Shown: positions 3,790 through 54,692, numbered from the stretch's first letter. The stretch: 64,000 nucleotides of DNA from Candidatus Sulfotelmatobacter sp. (GCA_030041475.1 JASHNU010000073.1:186001-250000); one strand, 5' to 3'. Translations and numbers: made by a program. The notes: generated by a model from the sequence alone, not told the origin.

Positions 3790-3808
3790 CTGCTGAGGGG
3801 AGACAAGA

Positions 3809-3843: not shown

Positions 3844-3855
3844 TGGTTTTGTGGA

Positions 3856-4802: not shown

Positions 4803-4847
4803 CTGGAACGTGATTCGCTCCCCAAAGTAGGTGCTAACGCGCGGAGA

Positions 4848-6555: not shown

Positions 6556-6608
6556 AACTCCAGCACGACTGCGCAAATCGGATGCCGCTGGGACGCTCGA
6601 TCGCTCTT

Positions 6609-8120: not shown

Positions 8121-8364
8121 TTCTTCGCCCGATCCCCTGTGATTTCAGGCGCTGGATTAATTGTCCTCGAAGCGTTTACCATTACCAGTTCTGGAGTCTC
8201 CGAAATTTGGGGACTGATTCGCATGCCATCTTGTCAGTTGCCATCCTTTCAGGTGCCAGGCTTTCATCTAGGGCAACCGAATTTCGTCCGGCGGAAAACC
8301 GGCCATTGACGCTCATTAATGTCCTTGACGCCCGCTGTAGTCAAAATTTCTTTGAGGCACAGTC

Positions 8365-10815
8365 ATGAAACGCATCAATAAAGTCGCCATCCTCGGCGCC
8401 GGAACCATGGGCGCCCGCATCGCCGCGCATTTTGCCAATGCTGGCGTTCCGAGCTACCTGCTCGATATCGTTCCTCCTGACGCGGACGCCCCCGCGCGCA
8501 ACAAAATTGCAGCTGCCGGCCTGGATGCCGCGAAAAAATCGAAACCGGCGGCGTTTATGGAACCGTCTCTCGCCCGCCTGGTCACCGTGGGTAATTTCGA
8601 GGACGATCTCAAGAGTCTTGCCGACGTCGATTGGATCATCGAGGCCGTGGTGGAGAATCTCGAGATCAAGCGCTCGCTGCTGCGCAAAGTGGAGGCCATT
8701 CGCAAGCCGGGGACCATCGTGACCACGAACACCAGCGGACTGCCGGTGGGCAAAATCGCGGAAGGATTCTCCGACGATTTCCGCTGGGCGTGGTTCGGCA
8801 CACACTTCTTTAATCCGCCGCGTTATATGCGCTTGTTGGAAATCATTCCGACGCCGGAAACTGATCACTCCGCCATTTTTGCCATCTCTCATTTCTGCGA
8901 CGTCCGCCTGGGCAAGGGTGTCGTCATCGCGAAAGACACGCCTAACTTCATTGGCAATCGCATTGGCACGTTCTCGGTCTTGAATGTCATCCGGCTGATG
9001 CAGGAAATGGGATTGACGATCGAGGAAGTCGACGCGCTGACGGGACAGGCCGTCGGGTGGCCAAAGTCGGCGACGTTCCGCACCATCGATCTGGTCGGGC
9101 TCGACATTCTGGGCCACGTAGTCGGCAACATGACGCAGAATGTGCATGACGAACGCGGCGATCTGCGGCTGCCGGATTTCTTCCATCAGATGCTGCAGAA
9201 GAAGTGGCTCGGCGATAAAACCAAGGGCGGATTCTACAAAAAGGCGAGGGGCGGCGACGGCAAGGAAGACGAGCGCCTCGCGCTCGACTGGAAGACGCTC
9301 GAATACCATCCGCGGCAGAAGCCGAAATTCGCCGCCCTCGACATGGCCAAGAACATTGAGGACACGGGAGCGCGCCTGCGAACATTACTAGGCATCGACG
9401 GCGCGCCGGCCAAAGGCGACAAGGCAGGAGCTTTTCTGTGGTCAGCGTTGTCAGATCTGTGGACTTACTCGGCCAATCGCCTGCCGGAGATTGCGGATTC
9501 CGTCGTCGAAATCGATCGCGCGATGCGCCTCGGCTTCAACTGGGAACTGGGTCCGTTTGAACTTTGGGATTCCGCCGGAGTCGAGGCCACGGTTGCGCGC
9601 ATGAAGAAGGAGGGCAAGCCGGTCGCCGCGAATGTCGAACGCTTGCTGGCTTCCGGGCAAAAGTCGTGGTATATCGACGATCCGAAGTCGCCCGCGGGGC
9701 GCAAGTATTGGGACTCAGGGACCGTGAGCTGGGAGCCAGTTCGAGTTCCAGCGGGGGTGTGGTCGGTCACGGTCGCGAAGAAATCCAACGGAGTGGTGAA
9801 GAAGAACTCGGGCGCCTCACTGGTCGATCTTGGCGATGGAGTGGCTTGCCTCGAATTCCACTCCAAAATGAACTCACTCGGTGCGGACATCATCAGCCTG
9901 ATTACACAGACACTCAAGCCCGGCGGACCGGGAGACAGCTTCGACGCTTTCGTGATCAGCAATGACGCTGCGAATTTCTCCGTCGGCGCGAATCTGATGC
10001 TGCTGCTGATGAGCGTGCAGGAAGAGGAGTGGGACGACGTCGACCTCGCCATCCGCCAGTTCCAGGGAATGACGCAGGCAATCAAGTTCTCTCCGAAACC
10101 CGTGGTGTCAGCGCCGTTCGGGCTGTGCCTGGGCGGCGGCACTGAGATTTCGTTGCACGCTGCGGCACGCCAGCCCCATGCCGAGCTTTATACAGGTCTG
10201 GTCGAGATCGGTGTGGGCCTGCTGCCCGGTGGCGGAGGCTGCAAGGAAATGCTGCTGCGTGCCGTGGATAGTGCCGCGGCTTCGCGAGGTGGAACTGCGG
10301 CCTTGAGCGGTTCTCAAAAAGACGCGTTGGCGGGATCGGTCGAAATGCTGGAAGCGATGAAAAAGGCGTTTGAGACCATCGCGACGGCAAAAGTGGCGAC
10401 CTCGGCGCATGAAGCCCGCGGCCTCGGTTTCCTCGCCGACTCCGACCGCATCACCATGAACCGCGAGCGCGTGCTCTCCGATGCGAAGGCGCGCGCTCTG
10501 GAACTGGTCCGCGCGGGCTACGAACCGCCGGTGCCGCGTACCGATATTCCAGCGCCGGGCGAAAGCTTGCTGGCAGCGCTCAAAATGGGCGTTTACCTTA
10601 TGCGGCAGGGCGACTACATCACCGACTATGAGGTGAAGCTGGGCGGAAAGATCGCGGAAGTGCTCTGCGGCGGACACGTCACCCCGGGCACAGCGGTCAG
10701 TGAGCAGTACATTCTTGACCTGGAACGCGAAGGGTTCAAGTCGCTGTGCGGCGAGAAGAAGACGCAGGAGAGAATTCAGTACACGCTGAAGACAGGCAAG
10801 ACGCTGAGAAATTAG
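8365..10815 (+). CDS. 3-hydroxyacyl-CoA dehydrogenase / enoyl-CoA hydratase fusion (FadB/FadJ-like)
   Basis: N-terminal Rossmann KVAILGAGTMGARIAAHFANAGVPSYLLDI; NFIGNRIGTF; C-terminal crotonase SVGANLMLLL..PVVSAPFGLCLGGGTEISLHA. Confidence 0.93.
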   Translation: MKRINKVAILGAGTMGARIAAHFANAGVPSYLLDIVPPDADAPARNKIAAAGLDAAKKSKPAAFMEPSLARLVTVGNFEDDLKSLADVDWIIEAVVENLEIKRSLLRKVEAIRKPGTIVTTNTSGLPVGKIAEGFSDDFRWAWFGTHFFNPPRYMRLLEIIPTPETDHSAIFAISHFCDVRLGKGVVIAKDTPNFIGNRIGTFSVLNVIRLMQEMGLTIEEVDALTGQAVGWPKSATFRTIDLVGLDILGHVVGNMTQNVHDERGDLRLPDFFHQMLQKKWLGDKTKGGFYKKARGGDGKEDERLALDWKTLEYHPRQKPKFAALDMAKNIEDTGARLRTLLGIDGAPAKGDKAGAFLWSALSDLWTYSANRLPEIADSVVEIDRAMRLGFNWELGPFELWDSAGVEATVARMKKEGKPVAANVERLLASGQKSWYIDDPKSPAGRKYWDSGTVSWEPVRVPAGVWSVTVAKKSNGVVKKNSGASLVDLGDGVACLEFHSKMNSLGADIISLITQTLKPGGPGDSFDAFVISNDAANFSVGANLMLLLMSVQEEEWDDVDLAIRQFQGMTQAIKFSPKPVVSAPFGLCLGGGTEISLHAAARQPHAELYTGLVEIGVGLLPGGGGCKEMLLRAVDSAAASRGGTAALSGSQKDALAGSVEMLEAMKKAFETIATAKVATSAHEARGLGFLADSDRITMNRERVLSDAKARALELVRAGYEPPVPRTDIPAPGESLLAALKMGVYLMRQGDYITDYEVKLGGKIAEVLCGGHVTPGTAVSEQYILDLEREGFKSLCGEKKTQERIQYTLKTGKTLRN

Positions 10816-10827
10816 GAGAGGTCACTC

Positions 10828-11400
10828 ATGCCAGTCTTGGAGGAAAGCTTTCTGCCGGTTCGATGGCTAATGTTCAAATTAATGATAGTTCTCGTCGGAT
10901 CGCTGGCCGCCATGGCGCAGACAAGCGCTCCCCCAAAGGAAGCGGCGCCCGATGTGCCCGATGCGATCGCGGTTCCTGCGGGCTTGACTCCGGTCCTGTT
11001 CGTGCACGCCAAGGGATCGCAGGTTTACGCCTGCCAGGCAGGCGCGGACGGCAAGTTCGCGTGGACACTAAAAGGCCCGGAGGCCGAGTTGCGTGACCGG
11101 AGCGACAAAGTAATCGGCCAGCACTCCGCCGGGCCGACATGGAAGCTAAAAGATGGCAGCGAAGTCACCGGCAAAGCCGCGGCGCACGTGGATTCGCTCG
11201 ACGCGGACTCGATTCCCTGGCTGCTGGTGAATGTGGTCAGCAATTCAGGAAAAGGACAGCTTGCGAAAGTAACCGCCATTCAACGAGTGCATACGCACGG
11301 GGGCAAGCCCGGCGGCGAGGCTTGCGACGAAGCCCACAAAGACGCGGAAACAAAGAGCAATTACACCGCCGATTATTTCTTCTTCGCACCGGCAAGGTAA
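10828..11400 (+). CDS. DUF3455 domain secreted protein
   Basis: AVPAGLTPVLFVHAKGSQVYACQ...FAWTLKGPEAELRD...HSAGPTWKLKDGSEVTGK...SIPWLLVN...IQRVHTHGG. Confidence 0.8.
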   Translation: MPVLEESFLPVRWLMFKLMIVLVGSLAAMAQTSAPPKEAAPDVPDAIAVPAGLTPVLFVHAKGSQVYACQAGADGKFAWTLKGPEAELRDRSDKVIGQHSAGPTWKLKDGSEVTGKAAAHVDSLDADSIPWLLVNVVSNSGKGQLAKVTAIQRVHTHGGKPGGEACDEAHKDAETKSNYTADYFFFAPAR

Positions 11401-11483
11401 CCGGGTGCTGAAGCGGAAAGGCGAGACAAAACATCGAATCGTAAGGACGTCGAATTGACAGTTCTGTTAAATGGAGAAATTCT

Positions 11484-12659
11484 ATGCGTGAAGTCGTGAT
11501 TGTTTCGTCGGTTCGGACGCCGGTGGGGCGCGCCTACAAAGGAACGCTCCGCGCTACGCGGCCGGATGAATTGGGCGCGGTTGCCATCAAGGGCGCGCTA
11601 GAGCGCGTGCCGAAGCTCGATCCCAGAGAAATCGAAGACGTGATTCTCGGCTGCGCCATGCCTGAGGCGGAGCAGGGGATGAACGTGGCCCGTATTGCCT
11701 CGTTGCGCGCGGGTTTGCCGGTAGAGGTTTCGGCGCTGACGATTAATCGATTTTGTTCCTCTGGATTGCAGGCGATTGCCATGGCGGCCGAGCGCATTAT
11801 GAGCGGCGGCGCGGACGTGATCGTCGCGGGCGGGACCGAGTCAATGACCATGATTCCGATGGGCGGCCACAAGATCTCGCCGAATCCGTGGCTGGTCGAT
11901 CATTATCCCGACGCATATCTTTCGATGGGACTGACCGCGGAGCGCGTGGCACAGCGCGCTGGAATTACGCGCCAAGCTGCGGATGAGTTCTCGCTGCGGA
12001 GCCATCAGAAAGCGCTGGCTGCGATCCAGGCCGGGAAGTTCGACGACGAAATCGTACCCGTTCCCGTGACTTTCAGCATGCCGAATGGCTCGAAGCCGAA
12101 GAAGCAGGAGATTCTGTTCAAGATCGATGAAGGGCCCCGCGCCGACACCTCGCTTGAAGCGCTGCTTTCTCTGAAGCCGGCATTCCATCTGAAAGGCACA
12201 GTGACTGCGGGTAATTCATCGCAGATGTCGGATGGCGCCGCGGCTGCGGTCGTGATGTCCGCAGAGCGGGCAAGAGCCCTCGGCATCAAGCCGCTGGCCC
12301 GCTACGTTGCATTTGCGACGGCCGGATACAAACCGGAAGAAATGGGACTGGGCCCGGTGTTCGCAATTCCGAAGGCCCTGAAAATCGCGGGGCTGAAACT
12401 TTCCGACATTGACGTGATCGAGCTAAACGAGGCGTTCGCGGCGCAGTCGCTGGCCGTGATAAAGGAAGCTGGGCTTGATCCGGAGAAGGTCAATCCCAAT
12501 GGCGGCGCGATCGCGCTGGGGCATCCGCTGGGATGCACGGGAGCCAAGCTCGCTGCGACCGTGATCCGCGAAATGAAGCGGCGCAAGGCCCGCTACGGCA
12601 TGGTGACCATGTGTGTAGGCGGAGGCATGGGCGCGGCAGGAATTTTCGAGAACGTTTAG
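11484..12659 (+). CDS. Acetyl-CoA C-acyltransferase (thiolase)
   Basis: [18 protein letters not shown] (active Cys), [32 protein letters not shown]. Confidence 0.95.
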
Positions 12660-36355: not shown

Positions 36356-36536
36356 GACACATGTGATTTGAGCCCTATACGCGCACAGACAGCTGTAGAA
36401 AACTCTGCCATGATGGTGGTTGTGTCGGAGGTTGATCTACTCCGGGAATCAGATCTGTGCGCATTTCCGACTCACGGCTCCGCGTTGGGTGAAGATATGC
36501 AACAATGGGTGCACTCAGGATTGCCGGAGAATTTTC

Positions 36537-39290
36537 GTGAGTCAGGTATCCAGCCCCGCCATACGCTCCATCGTTGACAAGGCTTATCCTGCCGCTCCCC
36601 GTGCGCGTGCAGGCTTGGATCCACTTTTCCTTCCCCGCTCGGCAGCGGTGATCGGGGCCACCGATCGGCCGGGAACGGTCGGCCGTAGCGTGATCTCGCA
36701 TCTGCTCGACAGCAAGTTTCCCATCAAAGTCCATGCTGTAAATCCCAGCCATGGTGAGGTCCTCGGCATCAAAACGCACAAGAATATTTGCGACATCGAG
36801 GGTGGAGTGGACCTGGCCCTGGTGGTCACGCCGGCCCAGACCGTGCCCCAGATCATCGGCGAGTGCGTAGACGCGGGCGTGAAATCAGCTGTCGTGATCT
36901 CCGCCGGATTCCGCGAGCAAGGGCCTGCGGGTGCAGCGCTGGAAGAAGAAATTCAGAAGCATCTGCGGCGCGGGAGTCTGCGTCTGATCGGTCCCAACTG
37001 CATGGGCTTCATGAATCCCAGCATCGGATTGAATGCGACCTTCGCCAAGACCCTGCCAGAAAAAGGCAGTGTCGCCTTTCTCAGCCAGAGTGGCGCGCTG
37101 CTGACGGCGATTCTCGACTGGAGCAAACGCGAGCATGTCGGCTTCAGTACCATCGTTTCCACCGGTTCGATGCTCGATGTCGGCTGGGGCGATCTCATCT
37201 ACTACTTCGGCGACGATCCGCACACCAAGAGCATTCTTCTCTACATGGAGTCGGTAGGAGATGCGCGTTCATTCCTCTCCGCGGCCCGCGAGATCGCTCT
37301 CAGCAAGCCCATCATCGTCATCAAGGCGGGACGCTCGGAAGCTGCTTCGCGCGCGGCCGCGTCGCACACTGGGGCGTTGACCGGAAGCGACGACGTTCTG
37401 GATGCGGCGTTCCGCCGCTGCGGCGTGCTGCGCGTGCAGAATATCGCCGACCTGTTCTATATGGCCGAAGTGCTGAGCAAGCAGCCGCGCCCGCGTGGCC
37501 CGCGCCTGACGATCGTGACCAACGCGGGAGGGCCGGGCGTGCTGGCCACGGACGCACTCATCGCGACCGGCGGCAAGCTCACTGAACTCTCGCCGGATTC
37601 TCTGCAACAGCTCGACAGCTTTCTCTCTCCTCACTGGAGTCACGGCAATCCCGTCGACGTTCTGGCCGATACGAATGCGGAGGGTTTGGTCAAGGCGGTG
37701 GACATCGCATCGAAAGACCCGGGAAGCGACGGCTTGCTCGCGGTGATTGCGCCGCAGGGTCTCGCCGATCCCACCCAGGTAGCGGAACGCATGCGGCCCT
37801 ACGCCCACAGCTCGGGCAAACCAGTGCTGGCCAGCTGGATGGGCGGCGACGGCGTGGCGCAAGGGACCGCGATTCTCAATGCCGCCGGCATCCCCACCTT
37901 CAACTATCCCGACGCTGCGGCTCGCGCCTTCACTTACATGTGGCGCTACACCTACAACTTGCGCGGTCTCTATGAGACTCCGGCGCTGGTAGAAGGACCC
38001 GAGATCTCCGCCGAGGCGCGCCGCAAGGTCAGAGAATTCGTGCAAAGCGCGCGCTCCTGCGGCCGAACCTTGCTCAACGAATTCGAATCCAAGCAGCTGC
38101 TGGCCAACTACGGAATTCCGGTGGTCGAAACCCGCGTGGCCGAAAACGAAGAGCAGGCAGTGGCGCTCGCTGCCGAAATCGGCTATCCCGTCGTACTGAA
38201 ACTCTTGTCGAATACCATTGCCCACAAAACCGACGTGAACGGTGTTCATCTCGGTCTGAAGAACGAGGAGCAGGTACACACCGCGTTTCGTGCTATTCAG
38301 TCTTCGGTTGCGCAAAACGCCGGCCCCGAACACTTCTCCGGTGTGACCGTGCAGCCCAATGTGAAGCGCGAAGGCTACGAACTCATTCTGGGCAGCAGCG
38401 TGGATGCGCAGTTTGGTCCCGTCATTTTGTTTGGCACGGGCGGAGTTATGGTTGAAGTGTACCGCGACCGCGCACTGGCGCTGCCGCCACTGAACACCAC
38501 TCTGGCCCATCGCTTGATGGAGCAGACAAAGATCTTCTCTGCACTCGAGGGCGTGCGCGGGCGCCAACCGGTTAACTTGACCGCCCTCGAAGGCTTGCTG
38601 GTGCGTTTCAGTCAACTTGTGATCGAGCAACCATGGATCAAGGAGATTGACATCAATCCTGTCCTGGCCACACCGGAACACCTGCTCGCACTCGATGCAC
38701 GCATGGTCCTCCATGACGCCACAGTCCGGTCAGAGCAACTGCCGCGGCCGACCATTCGGCCATACCCTGCGCAATACATCTGGTCGTGGAAACTCAAAGA
38801 CGGCACCCCGGCCACGATCCGCCCAATCCGTCCCGAGGACGAGCCGTTCATGGTGCAGTTTCACCACACGCTTTCCGAACGCAGCGTTTACCTGCGCTAT
38901 TTCTGCTCCTTGAGTCTGAGCACGCGCGTGGAGCACGAGCGTCTTGTGAGAATCTGTTTTGGCAGCTATGAGCGCGGATTTGCCCTGGTCGCTGATCGTA
39001 CGAACCCGGACACCGGACAGCACGAAATTCTCGGCGTAGCCCGGTTCAGCGCCATCAATAATGCCGAAGCGGAGGCGGCCGTTCTGGTTTCAGATCGTTG
39101 GCAGGGGCTCGGCCTGGGAACCGAATTACTGGCGAGCGTGGCTCGCGTCGCACGGGAGGAAAACTTCAAGAGACTTTCCGCTGAAATCCTGCGCGACAAC
39201 CTGGCAACGCAGGCCATCTTCAAGAAAGTGGGATTCCGCCTGCACGCAATGGATGATCCCTCTTCTGTGTCAGCTCTCCTGGAGCTTTAG
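36537..39290 (+). CDS. ADP-forming acyl-CoA synthetase (alpha-beta) fused to C-terminal GNAT acetyltransferase
   Basis: [53 protein letters not shown]-grasp [57 protein letters not shown]...[20 protein letters not shown] start at 36537. Confidence 0.92.
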
Positions 39291-40593: not shown

Positions 40594-41739
40594 TCAACGC
40601 TTCTGAGGAGGCATGTAGGCGCAGCAGGGCTCCTCCGCGAACAGATCACCGGTCATCGCATAGGCGCGCGCCCGCGACCCGCCACAGACATTGCGGACTT
40701 CGCAACGACCGCACTTGCCCTTGAGTTGCGAACTGTCTCGCAGGGACACGAACAAAGGCGAATCACCGAAGAGTCTTGCGAGTGGCTCTCTGGTCACGTT
40801 GCCGGCCGAAAGGCGCAGGAAACGGCTGGGGTAGACCTCGCCTTCATGATTGATGAAGACGAAACCTTTGCCGTCGTTTACGCCTTTGGGAGCGCAGGTG
40901 ATGGCCTCTGACTCTGTCAAGTCGGCCTGCGATTCCCGCAACCGCTGCTGCAAGAGATACCGCTGATAGTGCTGGCCTTCCGTGGTTTTGATCTGAAAGT
41001 GTACCCGCTTCGAGGCTGCGTACAGCTTAGCAAACACCTCTTCGTGTTCCTCGGCAGTAAGTAGTTCCGCCACCTGATCCCGGTTGCTGGGAACCAGGAA
41101 GAAGACATTCCACAGGGCCAGGTCGAGACGAGCAAGCAACTCGATCATGGGATCGATATCGTGAAAATTGCGTCGCGCCACGACGGTGTTGATCTGCACC
41201 GGCAACTCCACATCATGGCAAAACCCGATGGCGTCAAGCGTGCGCTTGTGAGCTCCGGCAACCTTCCAATAGGCGTCGTCGAGCACAGCTGTCGAGCCAT
41301 GCATCCACAAAGCAAGGCGCATCAGGCCGCGCGCTTTCAGCTCAGCAACGGTCTCGGCATCCAGCTTCGCAGTAGGAGGCAGCGTCAGAGAAGTCCGCAC
41401 CGAGCGGCGCGCCGCAAACTCGACGATGGGAAACAGATCCGGCCGCTGCAGCGGATCGCCGCCCGTCAGCACAAGCAGTGGCACGTGCATGGCCGCCACC
41501 TCTTCGATCATATGAAAGGCTTCGGCGGTCGAGAATTCCCTCTTGTCCCGGGCGGACCGCGCGCTTCTTGCGAGCGCAGATTTCCGGTCGCAAGGCGGTG
41601 TCATCTCCCACGTCACTTGTAGCGGCCGCAGCTGAAAATTCGGACCCTTCGACCCCGCCAAACTCGACCAGCCCGCCGCAGATGACGGGACCTTTCCGGC
41701 AGTGGCCGCGTGCACGGGTTTCGCCAAGGCATTCGACAT
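40594..41739 (-). CDS. Radical SAM/SPASM-family protein with degenerate N-terminal cluster motif
   Basis: VTWEMTPPCDRKSALARSARSARDKREFSTAEAFHMIEEVAAMHVPLLVLTGGDPLQRPDL (GGDP kept, CxxxCxxC lost); SPASM-like C...CGRCEVRNVCGGSRARAYAMTGDLFAEEPCCAY. Confidence 0.85.
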   Translation of the reverse strand: MSNALAKPVHAATAGKVPSSAAGWSSLAGSKGPNFQLRPLQVTWEMTPPCDRKSALARSARSARDKREFSTAEAFHMIEEVAAMHVPLLVLTGGDPLQRPDLFPIVEFAARRSVRTSLTLPPTAKLDAETVAELKARGLMRLALWMHGSTAVLDDAYWKVAGAHKRTLDAIGFCHDVELPVQINTVVARRNFHDIDPMIELLARLDLALWNVFFLVPSNRDQVAELLTAEEHEEVFAKLYAASKRVHFQIKTTEGQHYQRYLLQQRLRESQADLTESEAITCAPKGVNDGKGFVFINHEGEVYPSRFLRLSAGNVTREPLARLFGDSPLFVSLRDSSQLKGKCGRCEVRNVCGGSRARAYAMTGDLFAEEPCCAYMPPQKR

Positions 41740-41846: not shown

Positions 41847-41929
41847 GGGCCAAGTGACTTCTGCCATAGGTCAGTGCGGACCCTCATGCGAACCTACCCT
41901 GTTGCAAAAACTCTCAGGAGGAAACCAAA

Positions 41930-42247
41930 GTGAAACGACTTGTCATTCGGGCAACCCTGGTAACGCTGTTGGCAGTTGCTGTTGTCGCTCTCTATAGTCC
42001 ATCCGTCGCAGCGCAGGATGCCGCGGGAACCTACAAAGCCAAGTGCGCCATGTGCCATGGACCTGACGGCAAGGGCGGCAAAATGGGGACCCGCGACTTT
42101 GCCTCGCCTGAAGTAAAAGCCGAAACCGATGCCCAACTGACTGAGATCGTCACCAAGGGCAAGGGCAAGATGCCGGCCTACGAGGGCAAGCTGAAAGATA
42201 CGGAGATCAAAGACCTGGTTGCATACGTCCGCAGCCTGGCCAAGTAA
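41930..42247 (+). CDS. Small monoheme c-type cytochrome, secreted
   Basis: Signal peptide; YKAKCAMCHGPDGKGGKMGTRDF...GKGKMPAYEGKLKDTEIKDLVAYVRSLAK. Confidence 0.95.
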   Translation: MKRLVIRATLVTLLAVAVVALYSPSVAAQDAAGTYKAKCAMCHGPDGKGGKMGTRDFASPEVKAETDAQLTEIVTKGKGKMPAYEGKLKDTEIKDLVAYVRSLAK

Positions 42248-42340
42248 GAGTTGCAGCGGCCGGGTTAAGGCAATAAGAAAGGCGGCTTTGGTGCAGCCGC
42301 ACAAAAATCGCTTGATTGTGAAGGACCGGCGGGTGAGAGT

Positions 42341-44404
42341 ATGCCAACGCGGACAAAACGGAATGTTTTTGCGCTTGGCATCGCTCTCACCCTCTTCTTA
42401 ACCGCCGGTGCCGCGCGCTCTGCCGCGCCAGAAATTTCCAGCACCGACGATTGTCTCGCCTGCCACAGCGACAAAACTCTGACCACCAAACGCGGCGTGC
42501 GCACCGTCTCTCTGTTTGTCGACGGCAAGAAGTTCGCCTCCTCGGTGCATGGTTCGTTTTCGTGCACCAACTGTCACGCTGACCTGGAGGGCAAAGACCT
42601 GCCCCACTCCACGCCTCTGGCCCGCGTCCAATGCGGTACCTGCCACACCGAGGAGCAGAAGCAGCACTCGCAGTCCCTGCACGGCAAAGCCATTGCCCGC
42701 GGCGACCCGCTCGCTCCCCATTGCGTCGATTGCCACGGCAATCACGACATTGTGCCCGTCCGGGACCGCAACTCCGCCGTGGCTCCGCTGAAAGTTCCTT
42801 TCGTTTGCGGAAGATGCCACCAGGAGGGCACGCCTGTCCAACTCAATCGCAATATCGACCAGCACGACATCCTGCAGAACTACTCCGAGAGCATTCATGG
42901 CGAGGCGCTGCTCCAGAAGGGCCTGGTGGTCGCGGCCAACTGCGTCTCCTGCCACACGCCGCACAACATCCTTCCTCACACCGATCCCAATTCCTCCATC
43001 AATCGGCGCAACATCGCGGCGACCTGCACCAAGTGTCACGCCGAGATCGAGACCGTACACCGCAAGACCATCCGCGGAGAGCTTTGGGAGAAGGAAGCTC
43101 ACGTTCTTCCCGCATGCGTGGACTGCCACCAGCCGCACAAGATCCGCAACGTTTTCTATACCCAAGGCATGGCTGACGCCGATTGCATGCGCTGCCACGC
43201 CAACGAAAAGTTGAAAGCGGCCGACGGCCGCAGCATGTTCGTAAGCGCCGCAGAAATCGCCGCCTCGCGGCATGCTCACCCGCGCACGCAGGCGACGCCC
43301 GTCTCCTGCAGCCAGTGCCACTCTGAAGTCAATGCCTCACGCGTCCGCCCCTGCGAGACGATCACTCACCCGGTCGACTGCAGCCGCTGCCACGTCGAGG
43401 TCGGCCAGCAGTACCAGCGCAGCAAGCACGGTCAACTTCTCGCCGCCAACGAACCCAACGCACCCAGTTGCAGGGACTGCCACAGCACGCATCGCATTCT
43501 CGACAAACGGGATCCTCAGTCGAAAACCTTCTCCACCAACGTGCCCAACCTGTGCGGCGGCTGCCACCGGGAAGGGCAGAAGGCGGCGGTTCGCTACACC
43601 GGCGCGCAGCACGAAATCATTCAGCATTACCAGGAAAGCATTCACGGCAAGGGCCTGCTGCGCAGCGGATTGACCGTTACCGCGACCTGCACCAACTGCC
43701 ATACCGCACACATGGTCCTGCCCGCGTCAGACCCGGAGTCCTCGGTCAATTCGAAAAATGTTCCGTCCACCTGCGGCGCCTGCCATCACGGCATCGAAGA
43801 GCAGTTCGAGCAGAGCATTCACTCGCGTCTTGTCACCAAGACCGACAAGCAACTCCCGGTTTGCAACGACTGCCACAGCGCCCACACCATCCGCCGCACC
43901 GACGACACCGGCTTCATGCTCGACATCATGGATAAGTGCGGCAAGTGCCACAGCGAGATCGCCAAGACTTACTTCGATACCTATCACGGCAAAGTGTCGC
44001 GCCTGGGCTATACCAAAACAGCGAAATGCTACGACTGCCACGGCGCGCACGATATTCTGCCACCCACCGATCCCCGTTCGCATCTGAGCCGCGCCAACGT
44101 GGTCGCAACCTGCCAGAAATGCCACGCCACCGCGACTCGCCGGTTTGCCGGCTATTTGACTCATGCCACGCACCACGATCCCAAGAAGTATCCGTTCCTG
44201 TTCTGGACGTTCTGGGGCATGACCACGCTTCTGATCTCGACCTTCGTGATGGGCGGCATGCACACTCTGCTCTGGCTCCCGCGTGCGTTGCAGATGCGCC
44301 GCGACCTGAAAGCCGAGGCAGCCCGCGAAGAAGGCAAAGAAGAAGAGGCGGAGCGGTCAAACGGAAGGAAATCGTCGGGCGAGGAGGGATCCCATGCCGA
44401 CTGA
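42341..44404 (+). CDS. 19-heme c-type cytochrome with C-terminal TM anchor
   Basis: 19 CXXCH motifs counted by eye; N-terminal signal-like segment; C-terminal FLFWTFWGMTTLLISTFVMGGMHTLLWLPRAL. Confidence 0.93.
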   Translation: MPTRTKRNVFALGIALTLFLTAGAARSAAPEISSTDDCLACHSDKTLTTKRGVRTVSLFVDGKKFASSVHGSFSCTNCHADLEGKDLPHSTPLARVQCGTCHTEEQKQHSQSLHGKAIARGDPLAPHCVDCHGNHDIVPVRDRNSAVAPLKVPFVCGRCHQEGTPVQLNRNIDQHDILQNYSESIHGEALLQKGLVVAANCVSCHTPHNILPHTDPNSSINRRNIAATCTKCHAEIETVHRKTIRGELWEKEAHVLPACVDCHQPHKIRNVFYTQGMADADCMRCHANEKLKAADGRSMFVSAAEIAASRHAHPRTQATPVSCSQCHSEVNASRVRPCETITHPVDCSRCHVEVGQQYQRSKHGQLLAANEPNAPSCRDCHSTHRILDKRDPQSKTFSTNVPNLCGGCHREGQKAAVRYTGAQHEIIQHYQESIHGKGLLRSGLTVTATCTNCHTAHMVLPASDPESSVNSKNVPSTCGACHHGIEEQFEQSIHSRLVTKTDKQLPVCNDCHSAHTIRRTDDTGFMLDIMDKCGKCHSEIAKTYFDTYHGKVSRLGYTKTAKCYDCHGAHDILPPTDPRSHLSRANVVATCQKCHATATRRFAGYLTHATHHDPKKYPFLFWTFWGMTTLLISTFVMGGMHTLLWLPRALQMRRDLKAEAAREEGKEEEAERSNGRKSSGEEGSHAD

Positions 44405-45287
44405 TCTGGAGCTGCGATCCACGGAGGCACGGTCCGGGCGGGCGGCCGAACCTAAACGGCCCGAGCGCGAGTTCGTGCGCTTCACGCGCCTGCAGCGCAC
44501 GCTTCACGCCTGCATGATCCTAAGCTTTTTGAGCCTTGCCACGACCGGCCTGACTCTGAAGTTCTCGTACACGAGGTGGGCCGCGATGGTCTCCCGCTTC
44601 CTCGGCGGATTCCAGGTCGCCGGCTTCATTCATCGCAGCGCGGCAATTTTGATGTTCGGGGTTTTCGTCACTCACCTGTACAGCCTGGTGAAACTGAAGA
44701 AGCTGGAATACAAATCCTGGCGCGCTTTAATCCTCGGCCCCGACACTATGCTGCCCACACGTCAGGATCTGAAACAGTTCATTGCTACCATGCGTTGGTT
44801 CATCGGCATGGGCCCGCGGCCGCAATACGGGCGCTGGACCTACTGGGAAAAATTCGATTATTTCGCGGTGTTTTGGGGAATCGCGGTCATCGGTTCGACC
44901 GGTCTGACCCTGTGGTTTCCGACTTTCTTTACGCGCTTCATACCCGGCTCATTCATTAACGTCGCCACTGTCATTCATAGTGACGAAGCCCTGCTGGCCA
45001 CGGGCTTCATTTTTACCGTGCACTTCTTCAACACTCATTTGCGGCCGGAAAAGTTCCCCATGGACACAACTATTTTCACTGGCCACATGCCCCTGGCCGA
45101 ACTGAAGCGCGACAAGCCTTTGGAATACGAATCTCTGGTGAGCTCTGGCCTTCTGGAGCAACAGATGGAAGAGCCACAGCCGGAGATTGTGGTGCGTACG
45201 ATCCGGTTCCTTGCCTGGATCGCGCTTAGTATCGGTTTCAGCATCGTGATCTGGATCATTTACGCGATGCTGTTTGCATACAAGTAG
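44394..45287 (+). CDS. Membrane cytochrome b (b561/FdnI-like), partner of the 19-heme cytochrome
   Basis: Overlaps 42341..44404 by 11 bp; RTLHACMILSFLSLATTGLTLKFSYTRWAA...GFIHRSAAILMFGVFVTHLYSL...TVIHSDEALLATGFIFTVHFFNTHLRPEKFPMD. Confidence 0.88.
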   Translation: MPTDLELRSTEARSGRAAEPKRPEREFVRFTRLQRTLHACMILSFLSLATTGLTLKFSYTRWAAMVSRFLGGFQVAGFIHRSAAILMFGVFVTHLYSLVKLKKLEYKSWRALILGPDTMLPTRQDLKQFIATMRWFIGMGPRPQYGRWTYWEKFDYFAVFWGIAVIGSTGLTLWFPTFFTRFIPGSFINVATVIHSDEALLATGFIFTVHFFNTHLRPEKFPMDTTIFTGHMPLAELKRDKPLEYESLVSSGLLEQQMEEPQPEIVVRTIRFLAWIALSIGFSIVIWIIYAMLFAYK

Positions 45288-45337
45288 CGCTGCCGGTCGC
45301 CCCCGACGCGATCCGCAGAGGCTACAAGGAGCATGTT

Positions 45338-47479
45338 ATGAGAGCCGTAAAGCATCTCCGCCGGCTGGTTGGCGCGGGCTCATTCTTTTTCGCGTCTTTA
45401 TTCTTCTTCGCGCTCGTCCCTGGCCGCTCGTGGGCGTCACCGGCATCGGATCAGGATTGTCTGGTCTGCCACGGCCAGGCCGGCATGAAGTCTGATTCCG
45501 GCCGCAGCCTCCACGTGGATGCCGCCAAGTTCAAAGCCAGCATGCACGCCGCCCTGGGATGCACCGACTGCCACACCGGCGTGAAGGAATATCCGCATCC
45601 TACAAAGACGCAGCTCCCCAAGTGCACCACGTGTCACGAAGATCCGACGCGGCAAATACCCAAGAGCGTCCACGCGGTTCTGGGCGATGGCGCCGCCGCC
45701 TGCGCGAGTTGCCACGGCACAGCTCACGAAGTGCAGGAAGCTGCCAAGATTGTGCCGCAGCAATGCGCCACTTGCCACGAAGATGCCGTTCGCGGCTACC
45801 AGGCCGGCGTCCATGCCGTGGCCCGCAAGGACGGCGACGGACAAGCTCCCACCTGCCTCTCATGCCACGGCGGCCCGCACCAGATTCTGGCCGCCGACGA
45901 CCCCAACTCGCCGGTCAATCATGTCCGCATCCCCGCGACCTGTGCCCAGTGCCACGGACAGAAGTTTGTCATGGAGCGGGCAGGATTCAGTACCCAGCCC
46001 TTCTATTCATACGAAGAGAGCGTGCACGGCAAAGCGGTGGCCGCGGGATCCACCAAGGCCGCTGTTTGCACGGACTGCCACGGAGTGCACGAGATTCGCC
46101 CGGCCAATGACGACAAGTCATCTATCTTCAAGTTTAACGTTCCCGCCACTTGTGCCAAATGTCATAGTGCCGTGGAGCAGGAGTTCATGCAGAGTATTCA
46201 CGGCCAGGCCATCCGGCAGGGCAACTCCCAGGCGCCGGTCTGCACCGATTGTCACGGCATTCACTCCATCAAGTCGCACGTCGATCCCAACTCCTCGGTA
46301 GCAGCACAGAATCTGGCGCGTACCACCTGCGCCAAGTGCCATGAAGGCGTGCGCCTGTCGCAGGAATTGGGCGTCCAAGGCCGCCGTGCCACGACGTATC
46401 TCGCCAGTTATCACGGCCTCGCCGCCCGCGGCGGATCGCAAGTGGTCGCCAACTGCGCCAGTTGCCACGGTGTGCACAACATCCTGCCTTCGAGTGATCC
46501 TCGCTCCACGATCAATCAAGCCAATCTCGCCACGACGTGCGGCCAGTGCCATCCCGGCGTCACCGAGAAATTCGCGTCTTCCAAAGTTCATGTGGACGCG
46601 CCCCTTTCCGCCGACATCGGCAGCAAAGCGGTGCGCTGGATTCGCAGGTTTTACCTCAGCATGATCTTCGCCGTCGTCGGCGGCATGCTGCTGCATAACC
46701 TGATCATCTGGCGCGCCAAAGTTATCGCCCGGCGAAAGACCGAACATGAGTTCGTCGAGCGTATGCCGCTTCGTTTCCGTTGGCAGCACGCTGCCCTGCT
46801 CAGCAGTTTTATCGTCCTCGTGCTCACCGGCTTCGCCCTGAAATTCCCTGATTCCTGGTTCGCCTCCATGCTCTCGCTGGGTGAGGCCAAGCGCCATCTG
46901 CTGCACCGGATCGCCGCCGTGGTTCTGATCGGCGTCAGCCTTTACCACATGTTCGACGCCATCCTGACCCGCGAAGGGCGCAGGCTGGTCCGCGACCTGT
47001 TCCCCACGCTGGACGATGCCCGCACCGCGTGGCAAAATCTTGCCTATTATCTCGGCCTGACTTCGCGGAAGCCCGAGTTTCCGCGTTTCACTTACGCCGA
47101 GAAAGCCGAGTATTGGGCGCTGGTCTGGGGCATGATCGTCATGGCCGTGACCGGCATCATGCTGTGGGCAAAGGTGGAAGTGGGGAACCATCTGCCGCGC
47201 TGGTGGCTTGATATCGCAACCGCAATTCACTTCTACGAGGCTGTGCTGGCGACTCTGGCTATCATCGTCTGGCATTTCTATCAGGTCTTCCTCGACCCGG
47301 ACGTCTATCCGATGAACTGGGCCTGGTGGGACGGAAAAATGTCGGCACACCACTATCACGAGGAGCACGGCCTGGATCGCGGTACCTTGCAGGATGCCGC
47401 TCTGACCGAGATTTCCGATACCAGCCTTACCATCGTTGAGGAACAACCCGACTCCGCCGAGGTCAAACATGGACAATGA
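45338..47479 (+). CDS. 13-heme c-type cytochrome fused to cytochrome b membrane domain
   Basis: 13 CXXCH motifs counted; C-terminal membrane domain (QHAALLSSFIVLVLTGFALKFPDSW...HRIAAVVLIGVSLYHMF...AIHFYEAVLATLAIIVWHFYQVFLDPDVYPMNWAWWDGKM) homologous to 44394..45287. Confidence 0.93.
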   Translation: MRAVKHLRRLVGAGSFFFASLFFFALVPGRSWASPASDQDCLVCHGQAGMKSDSGRSLHVDAAKFKASMHAALGCTDCHTGVKEYPHPTKTQLPKCTTCHEDPTRQIPKSVHAVLGDGAAACASCHGTAHEVQEAAKIVPQQCATCHEDAVRGYQAGVHAVARKDGDGQAPTCLSCHGGPHQILAADDPNSPVNHVRIPATCAQCHGQKFVMERAGFSTQPFYSYEESVHGKAVAAGSTKAAVCTDCHGVHEIRPANDDKSSIFKFNVPATCAKCHSAVEQEFMQSIHGQAIRQGNSQAPVCTDCHGIHSIKSHVDPNSSVAAQNLARTTCAKCHEGVRLSQELGVQGRRATTYLASYHGLAARGGSQVVANCASCHGVHNILPSSDPRSTINQANLATTCGQCHPGVTEKFASSKVHVDAPLSADIGSKAVRWIRRFYLSMIFAVVGGMLLHNLIIWRAKVIARRKTEHEFVERMPLRFRWQHAALLSSFIVLVLTGFALKFPDSWFASMLSLGEAKRHLLHRIAAVVLIGVSLYHMFDAILTREGRRLVRDLFPTLDDARTAWQNLAYYLGLTSRKPEFPRFTYAEKAEYWALVWGMIVMAVTGIMLWAKVEVGNHLPRWWLDIATAIHFYEAVLATLAIIVWHFYQVFLDPDVYPMNWAWWDGKMSAHHYHEEHGLDRGTLQDAALTEISDTSLTIVEEQPDSAEVKHGQ

Positions 47480-49004
47480 CAAAACTCCACCTCCTGCGGT
47501 GGAGCCCTGGCACCGCTCCCGCATGCTGCTGCGCAATCCCATTAGCCTGGCGGGAGTGGCGCTGGCGATCGTCAGCCTGGCCAACATCTTCCTGTTTGTT
47601 CTGATTGACCAGATCGCTACCAAACCAAGCCCTTACATCGGCATCCTCGCCTATATGGTGTCGCCGGGCTTCCTCATCCTTGGTTTCTTACTGATGCTGG
47701 CGGGAGAGCTGCTGGAACGCCGCAAGCACCGTCCACCTTCGGACTTCTACCCACGCATTGACCTCAACGATCCCACTCAGCGCAGCGCCGTGATCTCGTT
47801 CATCACTTTCCTGGTGGTGTTCGCCGTGGTCAGCGCCGCTGGCAGTTACAAGGCTTACGAGTTTACCGAATCCACGACATTTTGCGGACAGTTATGCCAC
47901 ACCGTGATGATTCCGGAATACACGGCTTATCAGCTCTCTCCCCACGCCCGTGTGGCCTGCGCAGAATGCCACGTCGGAGCTGGCGCAACCTGGTTTGTGA
48001 AGTCCAAGCTCTCCGGCACGCGTCAGGTATTCGCCACCGTTTTCAACACTTTTCCCCGCCCCATCCCCACGCCAGTGCACAACTTGCGCCCCGCCCAGGA
48101 AACCTGCGAGCAGTGCCACTGGCCCAAGAAGTTTTACGGCGGGCAGCTTAAAGTCTTTTCCCACTACGCCAACGACGAGAAGAACAGCCTGCACCAGATC
48201 CGCATGCTGATCAAGACTGGCGGCGGCGATCCCGCCACCGGGGCGCCAGAAGGCATTCACTGGCACATGAACATCGGCAACCGGATTGACTATCTCGCTG
48301 CCGACGAGAAGCGGCAAATCATTCCCTACATTCACGTTGAAGATATGCAGGGGCGCGTCACCGAGTATTATGCGAAAGATTCAACCCTGACCAAAGACCA
48401 GATCAAAGCCCAGATCGCCAAAGGCGCTACGCATCACATGGACTGCGTGGACTGCCACAACCGCCCCACACACATCTACGTTCCGCCCGACCTGGCCGTC
48501 GATCAGTCGCTGCTCGCGCGCCGCATCGACGTTTCCCTCCCCTTCATCAAGCAGCAAGCCGTTACCGTGCTGACCGCGAATTACAAGACCAGCGAGGAAG
48601 CCATGCGCGGCATCGCCAGCGGCATGCAGGACTTCTACGAGAAGAAATATCCCGACGTGGCGAAGGCTAAGCAACTCGAAATTCGCAACGCCGTGACCGA
48701 AATTCAGCAGATCTTCAGCCGCACCGCCTTCCCCGACATGAAGCTGAACTGGCAGACCCACCCTAACAACCTGGGACATTACTACTATCCCGGCTGCTTC
48801 CGCTGCCATGACGGCCAGCACGTCAGTGCCGACGGCAAGGTGATCACCCGAGACTGCAACCAGTGCCACACTATGATGTCAGAGACGGAAGGCACAGCCA
48901 CAGCAGCCATTCCCCCTGCGCCTCCGTTCCAGCATCCCGTGGATATCGGCGACCTGACCCAAGTCAACTGCGCCGATTGCCACACCGGCGGGGTGGGGCC
49001 GTAA
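47469..49004 (+). CDS. NapC/NirT-family-like multiheme cytochrome (6 CXXCH + 1 CX3CH)
   Basis: Two N-terminal TM segments; FCGQLCHTVMIPEYTAYQLSPHARVACAECHVGAGATWFVKSKLSGTRQV; overlaps previous gene by 11 bp; start at ATG 47469. Confidence 0.92.
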   Translation: MDNDKTPPPAVEPWHRSRMLLRNPISLAGVALAIVSLANIFLFVLIDQIATKPSPYIGILAYMVSPGFLILGFLLMLAGELLERRKHRPPSDFYPRIDLNDPTQRSAVISFITFLVVFAVVSAAGSYKAYEFTESTTFCGQLCHTVMIPEYTAYQLSPHARVACAECHVGAGATWFVKSKLSGTRQVFATVFNTFPRPIPTPVHNLRPAQETCEQCHWPKKFYGGQLKVFSHYANDEKNSLHQIRMLIKTGGGDPATGAPEGIHWHMNIGNRIDYLAADEKRQIIPYIHVEDMQGRVTEYYAKDSTLTKDQIKAQIAKGATHHMDCVDCHNRPTHIYVPPDLAVDQSLLARRIDVSLPFIKQQAVTVLTANYKTSEEAMRGIASGMQDFYEKKYPDVAKAKQLEIRNAVTEIQQIFSRTAFPDMKLNWQTHPNNLGHYYYPGCFRCHDGQHVSADGKVITRDCNQCHTMMSETEGTATAAIPPAPPFQHPVDIGDLTQVNCADCHTGGVGP

Positions 49005-49118: not shown

Positions 49119-50027
49119 CTAGGCGCGATGCCCTGCGCCCACTGAGAGCACCGGGCACGTCGCCTCGCAGGCCACCTTGTACGCGACGCCCGCACCAAGG
49201 TGCTTGGTCAAGGCCTTTGGCCGTTTTACACCAAGCACGATCATGTCGGCAGTCTCCGCTGTCTTCACAATCGTCTCTGCCGGTGAGCCAAATTCCACCT
49301 TATACTCTGGCGCATGCCAAAGCTGGTTTGCTTCCGGAATCAGGTCACGGAGTTGCTTCTCTGTGAAAGCCTCTACCTGCTCCCGGTCGAGCACCGGCAG
49401 AGCTCCGGGCTGCGGCTCCGGCAGCGCCACACCAGGTTCCGGCGCCACATGCAGCAGGGTTAGTCGAGCCCGATTCTCCTCTGCCAAAGATATGGCGTAG
49501 GGCAGGCCGTGCACCGACTCTGGCCCGAAGTCGGTGGCGTACATAATATGCCGGAGGTTGCCATCGCCCTCCCAGCGGGTGGCATGCGGCCCAACCGTGA
49601 GCACGGGGCACTCGGCATTGCGAAAGACCTCTTCCGCCACCGACCCCAGCAGCAGCTTTTCCAGTCCCTTGCGGCCGCCGGTGCTGATCACAATGAGGTC
49701 AATGTCGTACTTCCAGATCAACTTCGAGAGCACTTCTGGCACTTCGCCCTCCTCGATCAGTTCCTTGTGTCTGATTGCCCGGAATGGCTCAGAGCTTGTC
49801 AAGTGAGTCATCTGCTGCTTCGCTAACAACCTGATTTGCTCTGGATCCGGCTGCACGCCTTCTACGAACGTCACGTGCGGCAGCACGTTCACCGAGTACA
49901 CCTCGGCGTCGTAGCGGTGAGCCAGGTTGAGGGCATAAGACAAAGCTGATTGTGCAGATGGCGAAAAGTCCGTGGCAAACAGAATGTTGTGCAGCTTAAT
50001 GCGCGGTGGAGCACTTACGGTGGGCAT
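49119..50027 (-). CDS. Universal stress protein, tandem UspA domains
   Basis: KLHNILFATDFSPSAQSALSYALNLA...VISTGGRKGLEKLLLGSVAEEVFRNAECPVLTVG, repeated in second half. Confidence 0.95.
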   Translation of the reverse strand: MPTVSAPPRIKLHNILFATDFSPSAQSALSYALNLAHRYDAEVYSVNVLPHVTFVEGVQPDPEQIRLLAKQQMTHLTSSEPFRAIRHKELIEEGEVPEVLSKLIWKYDIDLIVISTGGRKGLEKLLLGSVAEEVFRNAECPVLTVGPHATRWEGDGNLRHIMYATDFGPESVHGLPYAISLAEENRARLTLLHVAPEPGVALPEPQPGALPVLDREQVEAFTEKQLRDLIPEANQLWHAPEYKVEFGSPAETIVKTAETADMIVLGVKRPKALTKHLGAGVAYKVACEATCPVLSVGAGHRA

Positions 50028-50947: not shown

Positions 50948-50963
50948 TGTGATCCTAATCACA
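50948..50963. promoter_or_regulatory. Crp/Fnr-type site TGTGATCCTAATCACA (best copy)
   Basis: Perfect TGTGAT-N4-ATCACA palindrome 103 bp upstream of PFOR start; followed by near-site TGTGAACCTGGGTCACG. Confidence 0.7.
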
Positions 50964-51065
50964 CCCCCCTGTGAACCTGGGTCACGACAGAGCCACTCCT
51001 CCTCCGGCATCCTGAACCTATCGCAGCGGTTACGCCAGTATCCGCCGATAAGTCTGTTTTGGGGG

Positions 51066-54000
51066 ATGTCAATGAAGCGCAAATTCAAGACTATGGACGG
51101 CAACGAGGCCGTCGCGCATGTCGCATACCGGGTAAGCGAGGTTATCGCCATCTACCCCATCACCCCTTCTTCGCCGATGGGCGAGTGGGCCGACCAGTGG
51201 GCCTCCGAAATGGTGCCGAACGCCTGGGGAAGCGTGCCCCATGTTATTGAGATGCAAAGTGAAGGCGGCGCCGCCGGCGCCGTGCACGGCGCCCTGCAAA
51301 CTGGCTCGCTGGCCACCACGTTTACTGCCTCGCAGGGCCTGCTGCTGATGATTCCCAACATGAACAAGATTGCCGGCGAGTTGACCCCGACCGCGTTTCA
51401 CGTTTCGGCGCGCACCGTGGCTACGCACGCACTCTCGATCTTCGGCGACCATTCCGACGTCATGTTCTGCCGCACTACCGGCTTCGCCATGCTCTGCTCG
51501 AACTCGGTACAAGAAGCCATGGATCTGGCCCTGATCGCGCACGCCTCATCGCTTGAGACCCGCATTCCTTTCCTTCATTTTTTCGATGGATTCCGCACCT
51601 CGCACGAGGTCAACAAGATCGAAATGCTTGAAGATGACGATATCCGCGCCATGATCAACATGGAGCGCGTCATCGAACACCGCCAGCGCGCACTTTCGCC
51701 CGATCATCCCGTCCTGCGCGGAACGGCGCAAAACCCCGACGTCTTCTTCCAGATTCGCGAAACGGCAAATCGTTACTATAACGACGCTCCCGCCAAAGTG
51801 CAGGCCGTGATGAACAAGTTCGCTGAAGCCGTCGGGCGTCAGTACCACCTGTTTGACTACGTCGGCGCACCAGATGCCGAGCGCGTCATCGTCATGATGG
51901 GCTCGGGCGCAGAGGTCGCGCATGAAACTGTCGATTACCTGAACGCACGTGGTGAAAAAGTCGGTCTGCTGAAAGTTCGCCTGTATCGGCCCTTTTGCGT
52001 CAAGTCGTTTATCGAGGCCCTCCCCGCAACCGTCCGCCAGATCGCCGTTCTCGATCGCACGAAGGAATCCGGCGCCATCGGCGAACCGCTCTACCTCGAC
52101 GTGGTCAACGCCCTGCACGAAGGCCTGAAACTCGGCTACGGCAAACTGAAAAACGCTCCCGGAGTAGTCGGCGGCCGCTACGGCCTGTCGTCAAAGGAAT
52201 TCACTCCGGCCATGGTGAAGGCCGTTTACGACAATCTGAAGCCGGCAATGCCGGATCGTCCAATAAAAGATCACTTCACCATCGGCATCAACGACGACGT
52301 CACTCACACCAGCCTCGACTACGACGCGAAATTTTCCACCGAGCCCGACAGCGTGATCCGCGCCATGTTCTACGGCCTGGGCGCGGATGGCACCGTCGGC
52401 GCCAACAAAAACTCGATCAAAATCATCGGTGAGAACACCGCCAACTATGCTCAGGGATACTTCGTCTACGATTCGAAAAAATCAGGCGCCATGACCGTTT
52501 CGCACCTGCGCTTCGGCCCGCAGCCGATCAAATCCAGCTACCTTGTCTCGAAGGCAAACTTCGTCGCCTGCCATCAGTGGATCTTCCTGGAGCGTTACGA
52601 CATGCTCAGCTCGCTGGTCGAAGGCAGCGTTTTCCTGCTCAACAGCCCGTTCGGCAAGGACGAGGTCTGGGACCACCTGCCGCGCGAAGTGCAGGAGCAG
52701 CTGATTGCCAAAAAAGCGAAGTTCTACGTCATCGACGCCTACCAGGTCGCAAAAGACGCCGGCATGGGCTCGCGCATGAACGTAATCATGCAGGTCTGCT
52801 TCTTCGCCATTTCGAAGGTGCTTCCCGGCGACGAAGCCGTTGAAGCCATCCGCAAGTCCATCCGCGACACCTATGGCAAAAAGGGCGAGGAAGTCGTCGC
52901 CAAGAACATGCGCGCCGTCGATGAAACGCTGGCGCACTTGTTCGAAGTGAAGATTCCCACGAGCGTAAGCAGCAAAATCGAAATCCCCGGTGTCTTCCCC
53001 GGCGCGCCAAAGTTTGACCGCGAAGTGCTCGGCGCCATCTACGCTGGCAAGGGCGATGACCTCCCCGTCAGCGCATTCTCCTGCGACGGCACTTTCCCCA
53101 CCGGTACCGCCCGCTGGGAGAAGCGCAACCTGGCCCTCGAGATTCCCGCATGGGACACCAAGATCTGCATCCAGTGCGGCAAGTGCGCCATGGTCTGCCC
53201 GCACGCCGTAATCCGCATCAAGGTTTACGACAGCAAGGAACTCGCCAACGCTCCCGCCACATTCAAATCCTGCGATGTCCGCGACAAAGAGTGGGCGGGC
53301 ATGAAGTACACCATCCAGGTCGCGCCCGAAGACTGCACCGGATGCGGCGTTTGCGTCGACGTTTGCCCGGTCAAGAACAAGAGCGAAGTGCGGCTCAAGG
53401 CCATCAACATGGTCCCCCAGCCGCCGCTGCGCGAGCCCGAAAAAGAAAACTGGGAATTTTTCCTGAAGATTCCCGAGCTCGATCGCCGCAAAATCAAAGT
53501 CGGCACCATCCGCCAGCAACAAATTCAGGAGCCGCTATTCGAATTCTCCGGCGCCTGCTCCGGCTGCGGCGAAACACCGTACATCAAGCTGGTCACGCAA
53601 TTGTTCGGCGATCGCACGATCATCGCCAATGCGACCGGCTGCTCCTCCATCTATGGCGGCAACCTGCCGACGACTCCCTACACTAAGAACGCCGACGGCC
53701 GCGGCCCCGCGTGGTCGAACTCTCTGTTCGAAGACAACGCGGAATTCGGTCTCGGCTTCCGCATCTCCATCGACAAGCAGACCGAATACGCTCGCGAGCT
53801 TCTTCGCTCCCTCGCGGACAAAGTCGGCGACGACCTCGCCGCAGCCATCCTGCACGCCACGCAGAAAGACGAAGCCGACATCTACGACCAGCGCCAGCGC
53901 GTCGACATCCTCAAGGAGCGGCTGAACAAGCTGACTTCCCCGCAAGCCCGTCCACTGCTCGCCCTCGCCGACATGCTGGTGAAAAAATCCGTCTGGATCG

Positions 54001-54692
54001 TCGGCGGCGACGGCTGGGCTTACGACATCGGCTACGGCGGCCTCGATCACGTTCTGGCCAGCGGCCGCAACGTCAACATCCTTGTCCTCGACACCGAGGT
54101 CTACTCCAACACCGGCGGCCAGGCGTCGAAATCCACGCCCCGCGCCGCCGTCGCAAAGTTTGCCGCCGGCGGAAAGCCCGGTCCCAAGAAAGATCTGGGA
54201 CTCATGGCCATAACCTACGGCAACGTCTACGTCGCCAGCGTGGCCATGGGCGCGAAAGACGAGCACACGCTGAAAGCATTTCTCGAAGCCGAAGCCTTCG
54301 ACGGCCCCAGCATCATCATCGCGTACTCGTCGTGCATCGCCCACGGCGTCGATATGACCACCTCCATGACCGATCAGAAAGTCGCCATCGAGTCCGGAGA
54401 GTGGCTGCTCTACCGCTATCACCCCGAGCGCGCAGCTGCGGGCGAAAACCCGCTGCAACTCGATTCCCGGGCTCCCTCGCGCAAGCTGCAGGATTACCTG
54501 CTGCAGCAGACGCGCTTCAAGATGCTGACCAAGAGCCATCCGGAAGACGCTGAGCGCCTGTGGAAGCTGGCGCAGGAAGATGTGGAACGGCGCTATCGCA
54601 TGTACGAATACATGGCCAGCCGCAAGCCGGAAGCGGCCGCCGCGAAGGAAACCATAGAGAAGCCAGTGCCCGCAGCGGGCGCACCAAAATAA
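51066..54692 (+). CDS. nifJ: Pyruvate:ferredoxin/flavodoxin oxidoreductase, single-chain
   Basis: [40 protein letters not shown]; 2[4Fe-4S] [12 protein letters not shown] / [12 protein letters not shown]; TPP domain [15 protein letters not shown]...[42 protein letters not shown]. Confidence 0.97.
   Translation: [1208 protein letters not shown]

Follow-up and report, generated by a model that had tools for sequence, protein, structure and literature searches.

Two CbcL-type cytochromes and ImcH encoded together in a five-gene acidobacterial operon: candidate inner-membrane quinol gates

Introduction

What do five consecutive cytochrome genes with 40 c-heme motifs do for an acidobacterium, and to which acceptor would their electrons pass? 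The genes in question, here called A to E, occupy positions 41930 to 49004 of a 64,000-nucleotide stretch of DNA from Candidatus Sulfotelmatobacter sp. (GCA_030041475.1 JASHNU010000073.1:186001-250000), which is referred to as the window. We propose that the cluster supplies the cell with several alternative inner-membrane menaquinol:periplasmic-cytochrome oxidoreductases, formed by B with C, by D and by E. Two of these would be CbcL-type enzymes, one of them divided between two polypeptides, and the third is ImcH by signature and homology.

As genomic markers of extracellular electron transfer, inner-membrane quinone oxidoreductases of the ImcH and CbcL types have been described as some of the best (PMC12977616). 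In Geobacter, both are known to pass electrons from menaquinol to periplasmic carriers, with ImcH serving high-potential acceptors and CbcL low-potential ones. ImcH has been defined by three N-terminal transmembrane (TM) helices, an atypical CX3CH motif and six CX2CH motifs in a protein of 495-519 amino acids (Zhong and Shi 2018, PMC6295460), and the same 2018 survey recorded no mtrAB beside imcH. The CbcL/MtrH/MtoC family joins 3-23 CX2CH motifs to a cytochrome b domain of about six TM helices (Zhong and Shi 2018).

Results

All five genes lie on the plus strand and carry 1, 19, 0, 13 and 7 c-heme motifs from A to E, those of E being six CX2CH and one CX3CH. A motif scan of the five open reading frames found no CXXCK. 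An earlier note, made from the sequence alone, had counted the same five genes and 40 c-hemes by eye and had likewise seen no CXXCK, and the reading frames and the scan agree with it. Gene A (41930..42247) encodes a monoheme class I cytochrome c with a signal peptide and one CXXCH (PF13442, 62 bits). It is followed by B (42341..44404), a 19-heme cytochrome c with an N-terminal signal helix and a C-terminal TM helix; C (44394..45287), a cytochrome b with a sub-threshold match to PF01292; D (45338..47479), which unites a cytochrome c part of 13 hemes with a six-helix cytochrome b domain; and E (47469..49004), a protein with a NapC/NirT domain, for which the ATG at 47469 (511 amino acids) is the most likely start codon, over the TTG at 47436. 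The gaps are 93 nucleotides between A and B and 50 between C and D, whereas C starts 11 nucleotides ahead of the B stop and E 11 nucleotides ahead of the D stop. AGGAGG precedes both A (41916-41921) and C (44382-44387). The shared strand, short gaps, overlaps and AGGAGG sites suggest that A to E form one operon; promoter and terminator scans of the cluster gave results at chance level only. Chance reading frames or motifs are excluded because the heme motifs of B are conserved across relatives, as described below.

Gene E is ImcH, as judged by signature and homology. It has three hydrophobic segments within residues 19-130, corresponding to the three N-terminal TM helices of ImcH, and the diagnostic CX3CH is present as CGQLCH at residue 139 (47883..47900, plus strand), together with six CX2CH motifs in a protein that falls within the published length range. 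All of 15 diverse relatives share this CX3CH. Over nearly its full length E is 44-49% identical to ImcH of Geomonas, Geobacter and Oryzomonas, and matches at E <= 1e-20 were present in 128 of 297 sampled Acidobacteriota genomes. The ImcH and CbcL pathways of G. sulfurreducens are reported to be distinct and to be used in alternation, whereas here ImcH is co-encoded with two CbcL-type enzymes. In Oryzomonas japonica (L135), a 9-heme CbcL gene (7740-9611) lies directly upstream of imcH (9938-11488), and pairing of the gates therefore occurs in Geobacterales too.

Genes B and C together are a CbcL cut after TM helix 1, a split lineage of this enzyme and not canonical CbcL. We assign them so because B and C are fused in relatives and because C belongs to the CbcL clade. 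Among 37 Acidobacteriota genomes with a strong match to C, B and C are fused in 30, C stands alone in 6 and lies on a contig fragment in 1. In the fused relatives, the match to C falls inside a frame of ~930-1060 amino acids that also contains the 19-heme domain. The fusion is found in KSB1 (L106) and Zixibacteria (L131) as well, and the fused and split states changed at least three times on the tree. The break point is just past helix 1: in an alignment with Oryzomonas CbcL, the C-terminal helix of B (TM1; 44195..44263, plus strand), which ends at the invariant His641, matches helix 1, and C matches the remainder. In a cytochrome b tree, C and all of the fusions group with the Geobacterales 9-heme CbcL at 100/100 support, with the caveat that some rows have long branches and that joins within each clade are not all firm. 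Six membrane His columns (B641, C38, C80, C94, C195 and C210, corresponding to D453, 484, 523, 537, 631 and 646) are common to both clades of this tree and are complete save for C94, which is present in 83% of clade I.

B and C thus share with Geobacter CbcL the cytochrome b clade, the six-helix layout (TM1 on B and TM2-6 on C) and the conserved membrane His residues, which include the putative b-heme ligands. They differ from it in that CbcL is one gene with nine c-hemes, whereas B and C are two genes with 19 c-hemes, which arose by internal duplication, and with one candidate distal ligand that is a Cys. The earlier note had taken B and C for a third module, but the B-C fusions and the cytochrome b tree reject an unrelated 19-heme/cytochrome b module and show no new kind of enzyme but CbcL in two polypeptides. 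As a separate observation, B641 (44261-44263) and C94 (44673-44675) are two conserved membrane His residues in addition to the four that a diheme cytochrome b would require, and they may ligate a third b-heme or a nearby c-heme.

The duplication is visible within B, whose halves are 41% identical over 217 amino acids and each align with the 9-heme domain of CbcL. None of the 19 heme motifs varies among 14 stand-alone B sequences from Acidobacteriota and Ignavibacteria/Bacteroidota. A wider set of 24, in which fused B-C proteins join stand-alone B, covers Acidobacteriota, Ignavibacteria/Bacteroidota/Chlorobi, KSB1 and Zixibacteria; 18 of the 19 motifs are kept in every member and the first motif in 23. 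The candidate distal ligands also number 19, comprising 18 conserved non-motif His residues and Cys338, after His213, 611, 612 and 641 were excluded by hand, a choice not guided by a structure. Cys338 (codon at 43352..43354, plus strand) is invariant in 24/24 proteins and aligns with His89, a conserved ligand-type His of repeat 1. This replacement predicts one His/Cys heme in B. Hemes of this kind are described as having very negative potentials and as forming the active site of thiosulfate dehydrogenases (PMC9562282).

Gene D combines 13 c-hemes with a PF01292-type six-helix membrane domain, the multiheme-cytochrome b fusion that characterizes the CbcL/MtrH/MtoC family. It lies outside the Geobacterales CbcL clade: D and its 9-13-heme relatives form a separate clade (100/100) on the other side of the cytochrome b tree. 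By its domain layout and tree position, D is a second, distinct CbcL-like paralogue. Family models otherwise assigned the products only to generic c7/c3, NapC/NirT and cytochrome b561 types. An identity as NrfA nitrite reductase was rejected, as the operon has no CXXCK and the genome no PF02335 match over cut-off.

The signature and identity of E, together with the cytochrome b tree, support the view that CbcL-like and ImcH-like gates occur in one acidobacterial operon, as the earlier note had surmised. Its further idea of a single complex of five products has direct support, by fusion, for the pairing of B and C only.

The cassette is not confined to Acidobacteriota. Complete B-C-D-E sets, with the genes clustered, are present in the window, in SbA1 (L063), and in L072, G121, G073, G265 and G257, the last in the order A-D-B-C-E; the SbA1 genes have the order of the window, A included, at 81-86% identity. 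Three further sets have B and C fused (G230/L089, G278 and G192). The complete set recurs in Ignavibacteria/Bacteroidota/Chlorobi (L105, L113, L121, L126 and L133) in the order D-B-C-E, with B and C of L113 apparently partly fused or frameshifted, and in Zixibacteria (RBG-1 and L131). Among the 37 acidobacterial genomes that match C strongly, 28 encode ImcH, and in 15 it lies <=9 kb away. The proteins of the window are ~60-72% identical to those of Ignavibacteria for B and C, and ~38-48% for D and E. An approximately unbiased (AU) test rejected monophyly of the acidobacterial C sequences (p 0.0007), in a comparison that included one Geothrix-like row with a long branch and a group chosen after the tree was known. 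This rejection suggests that B-C probably moved between phyla.

In relatives, the cassette adjoins genes for an outer-membrane conduit. Two genomes of the window's own family, G121 and G073, carry on one strand a decaheme MtrA-like gene (TIGR03508, >250 bits) and MtrB (PF11854) immediately 5' of B-C-D-E. This MtrA-MtrB-B-C-D-E order is the best evidence for a role of the gates in extracellular electron transfer. In RBG-1, a decaheme, a barrel and two A-like cytochromes lie within ~18 kb of D and B-C. L087 and L107 have the order decaheme, barrel-like protein, A, D, E, in which the decaheme of L087 matches TIGR03508 at 270 bits; the barrels of L087 and L107 have no PF11854 match and are so called from sequence habit and position. 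A PF11854 barrel (L075, 255 bits) occurs in the same neighbourhood. SbA1 has a decaheme-porin pair on another contig (L166), with a barrel 39% identical to the L087 type. A-like genes lie near ImcH or MtrAB at 26 of the ~108 loci examined. As a side observation, the barrel-like proteins of ~790-900 amino acids (L087 5156-7534, L107 4452-7001, L166 7835-10291, L168 2402-5089 and L169 7750-10296) always adjoin a decaheme and escape PF11854, and they are possibly an MtrB-like family that has not been modelled.

The operon is flanked upstream by a divergent gene of 381 amino acids (40594-41739, minus strand) that has a radical SAM/SPASM look by eye and no Pfam match at 1e-8, and downstream by a convergent universal-stress-protein gene (49119-50027). 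Farther out, the region is flanked by a one-piece pyruvate:ferredoxin oxidoreductase (50949-54692) and by a fusion of an ADP-forming acyl-CoA synthetase with a GNAT domain (36420-39290), both compatible with anaerobic life. Other multiheme proteins of the genome include an ActA-like 5-heme protein as well as 4-heme and 9-heme proteins. In a second region of this genome (L052; G000:C3:8000-24000), a Crp/Fnr-like regulator, a Rieske protein, a cytochrome b6-like protein and a 9-heme cytochrome c are encoded in a row (6298-9618). Also there, at 3754-5667 and 2402-3757 on the minus strand, a histidine kinase whose sensor part carries two CXXCH motifs adjoins an NtrC-type regulator; this neighbour of the Rieske/9-heme operon may sense redox state through heme. 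In G257 (L169 6721-13700), a set of the Rieske/9-heme type is preceded by genes for a decaheme, a barrel and an A-like cytochrome.

Discussion

We consider it likely, though well short of certain, that these gates oxidise quinol toward periplasmic or extracellular acceptors. This reading draws on the ImcH signature, the B-C fusions and CbcL clade, the shared membrane His residues, the conserved hemes, the MtrAB synteny of relatives and the published roles of ImcH and CbcL. In the proposed scheme, B would supply 19 c-hemes and TM1 of a split CbcL, and C would supply TM2-6 and b-heme ligands; A may be the periplasmic electron shuttle for the gates. By analogy with Geobacter, encoding the gates in one operon would allow the choice of gate to be matched to the potential of the acceptor. 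We infer the quinol oxidation itself, the direction of flow, the role of A and this division of labour from such analogies.

Several points weigh against this proposal. It is built from sequence, with function carried over from relatives, and some members of the CbcL/MtrH/MtoC family, which is ancient, run in reverse. AlphaFold models of B and C have low confidence (mean predicted local distance difference test scores of 48 and 53), such that the membrane fold is not assessable from them. The earlier note's statement that the window has no outer-membrane porin-cytochrome genes is borne out for the surroundings of the operon, and family and pattern searches of the whole genome (rated 99.56% complete, in 112 contigs) extend it. 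The searches that find both a PF11854 barrel and an MtrA-like decaheme in G121 and G073 found no such barrel here and no decaheme over the cut-off, the best score (43 bits) being the 9-heme subunit of the Rieske/cytochrome b operon; nor was an L087-type barrel found. DsrA over cut-off was also not found. The lack of a conduit thus holds for this genome by MtrA and MtrB searches, but not for its same-family relatives G121 and G073, in which MtrAB shares the operon. The genome may have a conduit that is divergent or lies in an assembly gap, or the acceptor may be periplasmic.

If the acceptor is periplasmic, B might itself be a terminal reductase, with the His/Cys heme at Cys338 active on a soluble substrate such as a sulfur oxyanion and no conduit needed. 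The missing conduit, the invariance of Cys338 and the Cys/His active site of thiosulfate dehydrogenases (PMC9562282) all favour this view. Cys338 is, however, equally conserved where MtrAB adjoins the operon (G121, G073 and RBG-1), a Cys ligand can merely lower the potential of one heme within a wire, and similarity to known reductases was not found by family models or by PDB sequence searches, which gave only weak generic matches (NrfB, NrfH and one cytochrome c of unstated kind). We regard such a role as improbable. Electron uptake, in which the gates act as quinone reductases and MtrAB-type conduits bring in electrons from Fe(II), a cathode or a partner cell, is unlikely as well, if a little less so. 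CbcL/MtrH/MtoC homologues are present in Fe(II) oxidisers, PioA/MtoA homologues have been reported in Acidobacteriia, and direction is not readable from sequence; yet ImcH has so far been implicated in quinol oxidation only, and the nearby pyruvate:ferredoxin oxidoreductase and acyl-CoA synthetase fit heterotrophy, although a neighbourhood is weak evidence. We give still less credence to an aerobic or stress role, in which the gates would feed A, and A a cytochrome c oxidase or peroxidase. The class I family of A commonly serves oxidases, but the genome already has a Rieske/cytochrome b/cytochrome c complex, the Rieske/cytochrome b/9-heme complex and an ActA-like cytochrome for that purpose, and A-like genes adjoin MtrAB in relatives.

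Quinol oxidation toward the periplasm or beyond thus remains our preferred reading, and other such systems can be set beside it by description. CbcBA of Geobacter is another quinol gate, working at very low potential. It has separately encoded b- and c-type subunits, as do B and C, with far fewer c-hemes than B. Cluster 1 of MBNT15 SHF-111, for which quinol oxidation in iron reduction was proposed, likewise has several multiheme proteins and stand-alone cytochromes b, but with 9-16 hemes per protein, another gene set and no ImcH named (PMC9386147). In searches of the open-licence literature we found no description of the 19-heme/cytochrome b/CbcL-like/ImcH cassette, and one may exist elsewhere. 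Only tentatively do we suggest a cross-phylum quinol-to-exterior module: one potential-matching assembly would comprise ImcH, a second CbcL paralogue and a 19-heme split CbcL that has a His/Cys heme, and in some Acidobacteriota it would be encoded with MtrAB in a single six-gene operon.

The cassette joins the ImcH and CbcL types in one conserved unit, tied in relatives to MtrAB, and exposes a CbcL lineage that is easily overlooked, as its gene is split and its hemes are doubled. Hausmann et al. (2018, PMC6018796) stated that metagenome-assembled genomes of peat acidobacteria such as SbA1 lack known genes for metal reduction, one SbA2 candidate excepted, and left open Fe(III) respiration by these bacteria. 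Yet contig OMOD01000037 of SbA1, a close relative of the window's organism, carries the whole A-E operon, and this operon and the SbA1 decaheme-porin pair make the Fe(III) question testable. As two close relatives encode an outer-membrane wire within this operon, the cassette suggests that these little-studied soil bacteria are able to respire onto minerals outside the cell.

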